Shown here piece by piece: positions 35,910-39,662 of a stretch of DNA of 64,000 bases. Each line of letters begins with the position of its first letter. Positions within the stretch are counted from its first letter, which is position 1. The position numbers were made by a program, and so were the translations under genes. Source of the DNA: Acidiphilium acidophilum (GTDB lineage: Bacteria; Pseudomonadota; Alphaproteobacteria; Acetobacterales; Acetobacteraceae); assembly GCF_033842475.1 (NCBI RefSeq), contig NZ_JAWXYB010000018.1:2773501-2837500 (forward strand), read 5' to 3'. The notes below the pieces were generated by a model. The model was not told where the DNA came from. It ran no database searches and saw nothing but the letters and a program-made list of their open reading frames with translations.

Positions 35910-36428
35910 ATGAACGCCATCGTCGAACAAACCCTTCGCTCGGCTACCATCTCCGTGCTCGTCGAAAACGAATCCGGCGTCCTCGCCCGCGTCATCGGCC
36001 TGTTCTCCGGCCGCGGCTACAATATCGACAGCCTCACCGTCGCCCCGGTCGAAGACGACCGCCGCAAAAGCCGCATCACCATCGTCACCTCCGGCACCGA
36101 ACTGGTGATCGACCAGATCAAAGCCCAACTCGACCGCCTCGTCCCGGTCTACCGCGTCTCCGACCTCTCCCGCGAAGGTCCCCATCTGGCCCGCGAACTC
36201 GCCCTCATCAAAGTCATCGGCCAAGGCCAAAACCGCGCCGAAGCCCTCCGCCTCGCCGACGCCTTCCGCGCCCGCGTCATCGACGCCACCACCGAAAGCT
36301 TCGTATTCGAACTAACCGGCGCGACAGATAAACTGGACGCATTCCTGGACCTGATGCGCCCGCTCGGGCTGGCGGAGGTTTCGAGGACAGGGGTTGCAGC
36401 GATAGCGCGGGGAACAAGAACAATTTAA
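35910..36428 (+). CDS. ilvH: Acetolactate synthase small (regulatory) subunit
   Basis: The small subunit activates IlvB and confers valine feedback inhibition. The N-terminal ACT domain has ISVLVENESGVLARVIGLFS then GRGYNIDSLTVAPV. The C-terminal domain follows with LALIKVIGQGQNRAEALRLA. It is 172 residues. The TAA stop overlaps the next ATG by one base (TAATG), so the potassium channel gene behind it may be translated with it. Confidence 0.96.
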   Translation: MNAIVEQTLRSATISVLVENESGVLARVIGLFSGRGYNIDSLTVAPVEDDRRKSRITIVTSGTELVIDQIKAQLDRLVPVYRVSDLSREGPHLARELALIKVIGQGQNRAEALRLADAFRARVIDATTESFVFELTGATDKLDAFLDLMRPLGLAEVSRTGVAAIARGTRTI

Positions 36429-37117
36429 TGCAAAAAGCACTGCAGAGATTGAAAATCTTATCCATCACTGCAGTCGCAATCATACCAACCGTTAGCCTTT
36501 TGTTTGTATTATCAAAATTTGCAAATGAGCTTGTTGATATCTTTCTAGCGCTTATCTCTATAATGTGTCTTATTTCTGTATTAATTTACAATAATAAGGC
36601 GTTTAAAAGTGCACTAGTATTAATAATTAGTTTAGAACTGCTAGCGATTTTGACGCTTATCAGCGCAAGATTTTTTTCGGTATCGAGCGTTCGACCAACT
36701 CTTCTTATAATGACTATAGATAATTTTATTGCGGTCATCTCGTTATGTTTTTACGCAATAAGAAGGCTTAGCAATCCCGAAGATACCCCTGTTCTTGCAA
36801 ATCTATTGGGCTTTTTGATTTTTAATTATATTGCAATATATATTGCAATAATAACTCTTTTTTCTGAAATATATTATTTATTTTGTAGTTTAAATGCGTC
36901 AACGAAGACATATAGTCATGCTTGGTTAAGTGTATATTTTTCCGTTATCACACAAACAACCGTAGGATACGGCGACGTTTATCCTGCAAATCAGTTTGCT
37001 CAGTCAATTGCGGCAATTCAGGCGTTAGTGGGGGCTGGCATGCTTCCTATATTTGTATCCATCTTATTTTTCTCTATTTCTTCCTCGCGATCAAAACAAA
37101 GCGACGCGCAACGGTAG
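36428..37117 (+). CDS. Potassium channel family protein, AT-rich
   Basis: This membrane protein of 229 residues is almost all hydrophobic helices, with the K+ selectivity filter TVGYGD near residue 179, preceded by the pore helix VYFSVITQT. The single pore segment is at the C-terminal end, so tetramers are expected. Several helices stand before the usual two-helix pore unit, and no RCK or cyclic-nucleotide domain follows. Base composition is strikingly AT-rich against its neighbours, with codons such as ATA, TTA and AAT that are nearly absent elsewhere here. It begins in the ilvH stop (TAATG). This suggests a recent acquisition placed in the ilv operon. Confidence 0.85.
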   Translation: MQKALQRLKILSITAVAIIPTVSLLFVLSKFANELVDIFLALISIMCLISVLIYNNKAFKSALVLIISLELLAILTLISARFFSVSSVRPTLLIMTIDNFIAVISLCFYAIRRLSNPEDTPVLANLLGFLIFNYIAIYIAIITLFSEIYYLFCSLNASTKTYSHAWLSVYFSVITQTTVGYGDVYPANQFAQSIAAIQALVGAGMLPIFVSILFFSISSSRSKQSDAQR

Positions 37118-37144
37118 GGCGGAAGAGCGCAGCGTAATCCGCCC
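37117..37144. terminator. Hairpin after the channel gene
   Basis: GGGCGGA (37117-37123) pairs with TCCGCCC (37138-37144) around agagcgcagcgtaa, and is followed by ctttcg. The string resembles a palindrome found scattered in many proteobacteria; it probably ends the ilvBH-channel transcript. From here to 37378 I see no gene on either strand. Confidence 0.5.
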
Positions 37145-37378
37145 CTTTCGGCCCCAATCCCTACGCCTCGCACCCACCTCGCGCCCCGACCAATTATCCA
37201 GCATTTCACTCCGAACGGGTTGCGAAGCACAACCCCTCAACTTACCTACATCACGACCATCGACCGGATCGCCATCGACCGTCTTCGCACCCCGATCAAT
37301 CAAATCATCCGCCCAAACCGCCGGCCGACCCATCCACCCCCAAGCCCCAACGCCCCAGCCTGAACGCCGAGGAGACAA

Positions 37379-37702
37379 ATCATCGCCATCGTCAAAAGCC
37401 ATGCACTGGGCCTCGTCGAAACCAAAGGCCTAATCGGTGCCCTCGAAGCGGCGGACGTCATGGTCAAATCCGCGAACGTCGAACTCGTCGGCAAGGAACT
37501 CATCGGCGGCGGCTACTGCACCATCATCGTTCGCGGCAGCGTCGATGCCGTCAAGGCCGCAACCGAGGCCGGCGGTGAAGCGGCCAAACGTGTCGGCGAA
37601 CTGGTCTCGGTCCACGTCATCCCAAGCCCCCACAACGACCTCCCTGCACTCCTCCCCGCCCCGAGAACCACCCGAAAACCCGCAAAACCCCGCCGCACCT
37701 GA
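37379..37702 (+). CDS. Orphan bacterial microcompartment (BMC) shell protein with no canonical start codon
   Basis: The frame reads a complete single BMC domain of the PduA/EutM hexamer type: [37 protein letters not shown], then [20 protein letters not shown] and [11 protein letters not shown] basic proline tail follows. In frame, the only codons between the upstream TGA (37361) and the domain are non-starts; the first ATG (37460) lies inside the fold and would remove the first strand and helix. A GAGGAG site at 37369-37374 stands just before ATC ATC GCC ATC, where ATG is expected. So either translation starts at ATC, or a point change has silenced the gene. No other shell or microcompartment enzyme gene is in the window. 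Confidence 0.75.
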
Positions 37703-37834
37703 TCCCGGCCCTCACCCCTCCCCAACTAACAAAAGTTTCCATGCACCTTTTTTCCAAAAAATAGCCATTCTTTCACCTTCCTCTACCGTCTCAGCAGCCC
37801 GCCCCCGTCATTCCGAAGCCAAAACCGCTCTTTC

Positions 37835-38824
37835 TTACCCCAGCACCCCCAACATCCGCCGCCGCGTCCCCGCCCATTCCCGCGTCAGATACGGTGAAGC
37901 CGCCCCCACCGCGCTGACCGCCTCCAGCAACGGAAAACCCGGCGCCTCCCGCCGCCGATAATCCCACGAGCCATCCCCCGTCTGCATGATCGTACCAACC
38001 CCCTCCCAGCACCGCCGCCCGATCCGCACCACCCCATCCGGAAACGCCCGATCCACCGCCTCGACCACCGGCCCGATCGCCTCTCGCGGCACGGAAACCC
38101 CTCGCCGCTCCGCCCACAAACTCAGCGCCGTCAGCCCCCTGATCACATCGTAATGATAAAACCGTGGAAAACACGGCAGCATCCAGGACGCCGCCGCCTC
38201 CCGCTCCGCCGCATTATGCCGCGTCTCCGAGCCCATCGTCAGCCGCCGCCCCACCATGAACCCCGCCGCACGATCGAGAAAACTGGCCGCCTCCTCGCTC
38301 AACCCCTCCGCCGATTTCAACGCCATCGCCTCGAACGCCGCAATCGTCCCCACCATCGAACTCGGGCACTCATCCGTCACGGCATACGCCGATTCATCGC
38401 AATTCATCCCGCCATCCGCCATCTGATTGGCCACGAACCACGGCCCGACCCACGGCAGTTCCGCATCCACATCGACCCCGAACCCATCGAGCACCCGATA
38501 CACATTGCCCAACTGGCAATGACACGCCGTAAAATAAGGATCAGCCCCCTTTGGCAATTCCCCAGGCCCGTCCATGAAAATCGTGAACGGCGTCGCCTTC
38601 ATCGCATCAACGAACGCCCGCATCGTCCGCTCCGGAATCCGCCGCGTCTCGCCCATCTCATGCAACAGCAACATATGCCACCAGGGCGAATCCCATTTCG
38701 GCCAGTAGGAACTCGCCTCCAGACAAGCCAGCGCCTCGGCGGACCCCAAATACCCGACACTCGCGGCAATCTCGTCATCGAACATCATCGTCCTCCATAT
38801 ATCGATCACATCATCGCAACTCAT
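37835..38824 (-). CDS. Prenyltransferase/squalene-cyclase-like alpha-toroid protein
   Basis: I infer an alpha/alpha-toroid fold from repeated segments of the terpenoid-cyclase/protein-prenyltransferase kind: WPKWDSPWWHMLLLHEMGET, CHCQLGNVYRVLDGFG, ADGGMNCDESAYAVTDECPS followed by SSMVGTIAAFEAM, HYDVIRGLTALSLWAERRG and MQTGDGSWDYRRR. The DGGxNC...SS...GT block resembles uncharacterised bacterial members. No DxDD cyclase motif is present, so a cyclase reaction should not be assumed. It is 329 residues from the ATG at 38824; open frame upstream of it is only repeat DNA. No neighbour suggests a pathway. Confidence 0.6.
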   Translation of the reverse strand: MSCDDVIDIWRTMMFDDEIAASVGYLGSAEALACLEASSYWPKWDSPWWHMLLLHEMGETRRIPERTMRAFVDAMKATPFTIFMDGPGELPKGADPYFTACHCQLGNVYRVLDGFGVDVDAELPWVGPWFVANQMADGGMNCDESAYAVTDECPSSMVGTIAAFEAMALKSAEGLSEEAASFLDRAAGFMVGRRLTMGSETRHNAAEREAAASWMLPCFPRFYHYDVIRGLTALSLWAERRGVSVPREAIGPVVEAVDRAFPDGVVRIGRRCWEGVGTIMQTGDGSWDYRRREAPGFPLLEAVSAVGAASPYLTREWAGTRRRMLGVLG

Positions 38825-38840
38825 CCGCGCCGGAGGCGGT

Positions 38841-38983
38841 AGGGAAGGCAAGGGAAGTTGTTCTTTTTTGCAAAAAAGAACCAAAAAACTCTCTGACTCC
38901 GGGCCCGTGCCCGTGAAAACGCCCGTGCCCCAGAGGAGCGAAAGTTTTTTGCTACTTTTTTTCAAAAAAGTAGCCTTCTTCCC
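38841..38983. repeat. Long composite palindromic repeat, copy A
   Basis: The order is agggaaggcaagg, hairpin GTTCTTTTTTG/CAAAAAAGAAC (38860-38881), caaaaaact, a GC-rich core with cccgtgccc motifs, aaagttttttgc, hairpin GCTACTTTTTTT/AAAAAAGTAGC, then ccttcttccct. The two halves are inverted with respect to each other, so the entire 140 bases can fold on itself. It lies between two divergent genes. Confidence 0.75.
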
Positions 38984-39029
38984 TCCACTACGCTTTCTCA
39001 CCCCCCACCCCATGTGATGAATAGCATGC

Positions 39030-39662
39030 GTGTCCAGCATCGCGCCCCCTCACCCTCACGCCGCCGCCGATCCGATCGGCCAGTTCATCCAGATCCTGCG
39101 GGATCTTCTGGCCGTCATCGCGCGCAAGCGTCCCAGCCCCTTTCTCGCGGTCAGCGTCCTCGACAGTCTGTGCCGGCACCTCGAATATTTCCTCCACCGC
39201 CTCACCCGCGCCGCGATCACGCTGGCCAAACCCACAGTCTTCGGCCCGCCCGCACCCCGCACCCGCCCCGCATCGACCAAGCCGCGCAAACCCCGCGAAA
39301 TCATGCACATCCTCGGCTGGATACCCGCCCTCGCCGCCTACTGGCTGTCGGACATCGCCGAAGACATCGGCATCACCAGCACCGAACTCACCACCCTGCT
39401 GGCCGGTCAACCCTTCCAATCCCTCGTCGCGCGCTACCCCAAACTCGGCCGCACCATCCGCCCGATCTGCCGCGCCTTCGGCATCAAACCCCCCGGACTC
39501 CTCCGCCTGCCGCAGCGCCCGCGCCCCAAACCCGCGCCCTGGCCGATCCCCCTCGACCCCGCCGACATCCGCATCCCCGACAAACACTACCACGGCGTCC
39601 ATTTCGGCCCCGGCAACCGCTTCTGGCCACCCCAACGCAAAGCCCCGCGAAAACGACCCTGA
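39030..39662 (+). CDS. Uncharacterised protein, paralogue of the gene at 49933-50496
   Basis: I recognise no known domain. The 210-residue protein has a helical N-terminal half with LHRLTRAAITLAKP, a proline/arginine linker, HILGWIPALAAYWLSDI, then ELTTLLAGQPFQSLVARYPK with LGRTIRPICRAFGIKPPGLL. The same blocks in the same order occur in the gene at 49933-50496 (FTRAALIGPRP, QGWLRRLLPDS, QLSDLLADPAMAELIETNPA, IGRTLRPLFAALGMARPPIL). The tail is rich in Pro and His. Two copies in one window imply a lineage-specific family. Confidence 0.6.
   Translation: MSSIAPPHPHAAADPIGQFIQILRDLLAVIARKRPSPFLAVSVLDSLCRHLEYFLHRLTRAAITLAKPTVFGPPAPRTRPASTKPRKPREIMHILGWIPALAAYWLSDIAEDIGITSTELTTLLAGQPFQSLVARYPKLGRTIRPICRAFGIKPPGLLRLPQRPRPKPAPWPIPLDPADIRIPDKHYHGVHFGPGNRFWPPQRKAPRKRP

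Follow-up and report, generated by a model that had tools for sequence, protein, structure and literature searches.

A satellite microcompartment shell gene of Acidiphilium acidophilum that probably starts at an ATC codon

The window, by which we mean the whole 64,000-nucleotide stretch of Acidiphilium acidophilum DNA analyzed here, contains an orphan gene for a microcompartment (BMC) shell protein that lacks a canonical start codon (ATG, GTG, or TTG). From sequence comparison, it is probably a functional satellite gene of the hexamer class (BMC-H) that would be translated from ATC, most likely the ATC at 37382, behind an AGGAG ribosome site. Initiation at ATC best explains the kept ribosome site, the kept ATC codons, the missing canonical start, and the constraint on the protein. 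In a literature search of limited extent, we found no description of a shell gene with an ATC start and none of a satellite BMC-H gene in Acidiphilium.

The orphan frame follows an in-frame TGA and closes at a TGA at 37700 to 37702 on the forward strand (Table 1). Codons from 37361 read TGA, then ACG CCG AGG AGA CAA, ATC (37379), ATC (37382), GCC ATC GTC AAA AGC CAT GCA, CTG (37406), and GGC. The first-pass annotation had begun the gene at 37361, which is a stop codon; the coding part runs instead from 37379 (107 amino acids) or 37382 (106 amino acids). Its observation that usual start codons are missing between that stop and the BMC domain was borne out, the in-frame codon listing holding zero, and so was the ribosome site followed by ATC ATC GCC ATC, with AGGAG ending 4 nt before the first ATC and 7 nt before the second. 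Under a simple composition model of the leader (37122 to 37378; 44% C, 18% G), the chance of AGGAG in one of six places is about 0.002. With a ribosome site present and no ATG, GTG, or TTG before the domain, the gene qualifies as a candidate non-canonical-start gene. Among the points against an ATC-started gene, ATC starts are inefficient, and a search of the forward strand of the leader (37118 to 37378) turned up no sigma-70-like promoter.

Table 1. Features of the orphan shell gene and its leader in the window
Feature	Position	Strand	Basis
In-frame TGA stop closing the frame upstream	37361..37363	+	Translation, sequence
AGGAG, Shine-Dalgarno-like ribosome site (GAGGAG from 37369)	37370..37374	+	Sequence; identical in L007
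ATC, alternative start codon	37379..37381	+	4 nt after AGGAG; kept in L007
ATC, likeliest start codon, GCC next	37382..37384	+	7-nt spacing; kept in L007; ATC GCC in infC of two congeners
Predicted CDS of the orphan BMC-H shell protein	37382..37702	+	Frame, domain match, dN/dS
BMC domain PF00936, profile 1-75 of 75	37403..37630	+	Profile search
CTG (TTG in L007), rival start within the first strand, no AGGAG ahead	37406..37408	+	Sequence comparison
Proline/basic C-terminal tail past the BMC fold	37658..37699	+	Sequence; low confidence in model

A species-representative genome scan, which uses short conserved peptides and may miss relatives, yielded 463 candidate stretches and 89 relatives, of which 80 were kept. 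The sole close relative found is L007, from the MAG Acidiphilium sp. STC_15, at 97% protein identity; the next best reaches 71% over its best segment. L007 carries the identical AGGAG ACAA ATC ATC GCC ATC and has no canonical start either. The first-pass annotation had raised the question of whether relatives have ATG at 37379 or 37382, and L007 has ATC at both. This identity makes a base error or a very recent silencing unlikely. That the start codon was misread or misassembled is thus extremely improbable, the same bases standing in two separate assemblies, although the L007 contig has low coverage (2.18 according to its title). The first-pass annotation had also offered a choice between an ATC-initiated gene and one just silenced by a single base change; the first is favored by the identical L007 sequence and by the constraint described below, and the second is unlikely.

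Among the 13 genomes of the genus, the orphan gene is present in 2, its own and G060, which is graded as the same species as the window genome. Because the coordinates of the match on G060 contig C439 are those of L007, the two are evidently the same record. Searches for wider orthologs matched 11 of 397 family genomes, with only the two known copies above 56% identity, and 13 of 385 class genomes, with none above 63% among the matches listed except its own. BMC-H genes in the same-family genomes G104 and G405 (54 to 56% identity) were rejected as orthologs and represent another type. The G104 gene lies within an operon with aldehyde dehydrogenase-like and aminotransferase-like open reading frames (ORFs) named by eye; this microcompartment operon (L146, 6265-11327) comprises BMC-T, BMC-H, and BMC-P genes alongside those ORFs. 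Start codons were surveyed at 96 loci (the 80 from the scan plus 16 family-genome loci, fragment L109 being left out), some of which overlap and give the same protein, for 86 distinct proteins including the window's. All 95 other relatives have a canonical start (ATG, GTG, or TTG) before the position that aligns with codon 10, so the missing start is peculiar to the orphan gene; in L007, codon 10 alone is TTG.

The two copies of the CDS differ at 12 of 324 bases with no indel, and 8 of the 12 changes fall at third codon positions. Nine are synonymous and three alter an amino acid (V to I, V to A, and K to R), giving a dS of 0.114, a dN of 0.013, and a dN/dS of 0.11 (Fisher P of about 5e-4; one pair, 12 changes); the two genomes are graded as the same species, so few changes carry this estimate. 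When 12 substitutions were placed at random with transition weights of 1, 2, and 4, three or fewer residues changed in 0.04%, 0.085%, and 0.17% of runs, respectively. Stop-free outcomes occurred in 77 to 86% of random runs, so the absence of stops is uninformative alone. In the upstream flank (37122 to 37335), 44 of 214 aligned bases differ (20.6%) and L007 has 21 additional bases; 4 of 43 bases differ from 37336 to 37378; and in the downstream flank (37703 to 37834), 16 of 132 bases differ, with 3 extra bases. By these counts, dS is close to downstream-flank divergence, and amino acid change is about ninefold rarer. Protein-level constraint thus looks to act between the two copies, as judged from this comparison.

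These data bear on the rival explanation that the gene is an older pseudogene, its start lost in the common ancestor of both genomes and its frame yet to decay. Such a history would account for the missing canonical start in both copies, for the absence of the gene from the other 11 genus genomes, and for the lack of adjoining shell genes or BMC enzymes in the stretches examined. In addition, the long branch of the orphan clade (1.37) and its unusual residues could reflect relaxed constraint before the copies split. However, dN/dS after the split is 0.11 with no indel, whereas neighboring noncoding DNA changed by 12 to 21% with indels, and the ribosome site and ATC codons are unchanged in L007. 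We therefore regard an older pseudogene as unlikely. With a canonical start missing from both copies, the most parsimonious history is loss before the split and constraint after it.

The complete BMC hexamer domain reported in the first-pass annotation was recovered as a single PF00936 match covering the whole profile, at 97 bits against a curated cut-off of 24.5. The orphan protein scores below the curated models for EutM (NF012018; 111.2 bits against a cut-off of 133) and for alpha-carboxysome CsoS1 (NF053791; 92.5 against 166). In an AlphaFold monomer model built with 70 aligned sequences (pLDDT of 85.6, pTM of 0.75), the BMC fold is intact, the first strand spans residues 9 to 16, and residues 1 to 4 and the tail have low confidence. 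The nearest solved structure to the model is EutM from C. difficile, 4axj_A (69% identity, rmsd of 0.5, target TM of 0.97), with a Foldseek E value of 3.9e-13 that places the model in the BMC fold. The product is thus a predicted EutM/PduA-type hexamer protein and not a curated EutM or CsoS1. Like EutM, PduA, and CutN, it has the whole PF00936 domain, keeps Lys30 and the GGG pore region, and has EutM 4axj (E value of 8e-35) and CutN 7mmx as its nearest structures. It differs from these proteins in lacking a canonical start codon, in standing outside any shell or enzyme operon, and in its basic proline-rich tail and long branch. It also deviates at alignment positions 47, 54, 56, 66, and 89, in columns that are invariant or nearly so in the other rows. 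An Arg-to-Ser exchange at position 83 was rejected as a special change, Ser being commoner there (46 of 84 rows).

The model also bears on whether a shortened protein is made, with a start at codon 10 (CTG in the window, TTG in L007) or at ATG 37460 inside the frame. The L007 codon is a canonical start, and an 80-amino-acid frame opens at ATG 37460. However, codon 10 has no preceding AGGAG, and because the first strand comprises residues 9 to 16, a start there would trim it; ATG 37460 would remove the strand and part of the first helix. The modeled fold would stay whole with a start at residue 1, 2, or 4. Furthermore, the codon 10 difference is a plain synonymous exchange between Leu codons, and relatives with an upstream start can likewise have TTG at this Leu. 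A shortened protein is accordingly improbable. Genes starting outside ATG, GTG, and TTG are overlooked or shortened by gene finders, and the gene listing of L007 opens the orphan gene inside the first strand.

Upstream entry of ribosomes into the frame is another alternative, whether through reinitiation after a short upstream ORF, a frameshift, or read-through of the stop. A 47-codon ORF opening at TTG ends at the in-frame TGA at 37361 to 37363, and in L007 an ORF of 114 codons ends at the corresponding TGA. However, the leader insertions between the copies are not multiples of three, 20.6% of the aligned leader bases differ, and the two upstream ORFs are not one frame end to end, which leaves upstream entry very unlikely.

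As a control for non-canonical starts in the genus, we examined infC, which was found in all 13 genomes, the window's own included. Start sites were aligned at the N-terminal VN(E/D)DIR motif, and none has a canonical start at the aligned site; the codon there is ATA in 11 genomes and ATC in 2, behind a purine-rich ribosome site. In the in-frame text, GGAG lies 6 nt before the start site in 12 of 13; at L155, a stop stands directly before GAG. The open frame is without any canonical start in 10 of 13, and the other 3 have such codons farther upstream, two of them at 54 codons before the motif and one at 46, 44, and 27. Thus, infC in this genus appears, by these alignments, to start at ATA or ATC. 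In G001 and G010, the start reads ATC GCC, matching the orphan gene at 37382. The infC loci are G000:C18:1238220-1238717 (L149) and L150 to L161, and gene callers limited to ATG, GTG, and TTG would misplace the infC start in the whole genus set.

It has been described that the start codon of infC is ATT in E. coli and, in Streptomyces, ATC, that Streptomyces sigR has a GTC start repressed by IF3, and that IF3 represses non-canonical starts; few genes of this kind besides infC and sigR have been characterized (PMC5472188). As in infC (ATT, ATC, or ATA) and sigR (GTC), a conserved non-canonical codon follows the ribosome site in the orphan gene, whose translation would likely be limited by IF3. 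The orphan gene differs from them in showing no apparent regulatory loop and in that conservation of its start is based on two genomes.

Shell genes elsewhere in the genome were sought with the BMC profile, which matched five stretches: the orphan gene, three CsoS1-type BMC-H genes, and one BMC-T-like gene. A. acidophilum is a carboxysome-bearing species, and all of the matches apart from the orphan gene lie in one operon, an alpha-carboxysome operon near 497 to 511 kb of C18, the same contig, about 2.3 Mb from the orphan gene. Two BMC-P genes follow in this operon, which contains RuBisCO large and small chains, a carboxysome carbonic anhydrase (579.6 bits, above its cut-off), three CsoS1 (187 bits, above the NF053791 cut-off), CbbQ, and a VWA protein. 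CsoS2-like matches (635 and 404.5 bits; curated cut-offs, 1100 and 850) and a bacterioferritin-like ORF (48 bits) fell below their cut-offs. The first-pass annotation had found no shell proteins nearby; the orphan gene is indeed the sole BMC profile match near the window, but the genome does hold this operon. The orphan protein is 49 to 51% identical to the genome's CsoS1. In a tree of 86 rows and 98 columns with many unresolved forks, it groups with L007 (support of 100/100, branch of 1.37), and the CsoS1 rows form a separate clade (100/100, branch of 1.71); given these long branches, the exact placement of both clades is unsure. Given this identity and separation, recent copying from the resident csoS1 genes was rejected; nor is the gene a plain pseudogene copy of an operon elsewhere, a case that the first-pass annotation had allowed for.

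Lying 2.3 Mb from the main BMC-H/BMC-P locus, the orphan gene is a satellite BMC locus. The ccmK3 and ccmK4 genes of beta-carboxysomes are described as satellite loci (PMC8217296, PMC5853843, PMC4207490), and satellite shell genes are thought to tune permeability (PMC8217296, PMC5853843). Like ccmK3 and ccmK4, the orphan gene is far from the main shell locus and open to separate regulation; unlike them, it encodes a predicted metabolosome-type hexamer beside an alpha-carboxysome.

In the mechanism we propose, initiator tRNA would read ATC with fMet, IF3, in discriminating against non-canonical starts, would hold translation low, and the product would fold into an EutM/PduA-type hexamer and serve as a minor shell component. 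The alpha-carboxysome would be the most plausible partner, since the genome search found no other shell operon, and a dosed foreign hexamer could alter its pore properties. We favor a minor carboxysome role because of the permeability function ascribed to satellite shell genes, but this partnership, drawn by analogy, is the weakest step and is put forward tentatively. That an alpha-carboxysome bacterium has adopted an EutM-like metabolosome-type hexamer, with a fixed, IF3-controlled ATC start holding its amount low, is a long shot. If true, start-codon choice would set shell composition and tie it to the condition of the translation machinery. Because shell proteins assemble by stoichiometry, a dose-capping start codon would control shell composition in an easily testable way.

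Upstream of the orphan gene are ilvB/ilvN-like genes (assigned by eye from ORFs) and an ion-channel gene (PF07885). An Mrr-type endonuclease gene replaces the channel in L007, and G006 has a different, divergent channel and no orphan gene; hence the orphan gene occupies a variable location, which after ilvN spans 36428 to 37117 in the window and 1800 to 2549 in L007. Phage origin was rejected, with no relative on viral contigs. Plasmid origin was also rejected: among the matches listed (best 20 of 47), identity to plasmid relatives reaches about 67% at most, and a megablast of the neighborhood against plasmids gave one 91-base match only. A repeat suspected in the leader was rejected, as its pattern has a single occurrence in the window and a single one in the whole genome. 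About 40 kb upstream, eutB and eutC lie side by side without shell genes (G000:C18:2769708-2771886; L168, 5709-7887). A link to ethanolamine utilization was rejected, as 5 of the 13 genus genomes carry eutB and 3 of these lack the orphan gene, and no further BMC profile match lies near eutB and eutC. Downstream, a conserved ORF on the reverse strand (37835 to 39040), also present in L007 and G006, has no Pfam match. A dispersed repeat of about 150 bases (around 38834 to 39050), found in many places in this genome and in congeners, overlaps the 5' end of that ORF and makes its ATG at 39040 doubtful.
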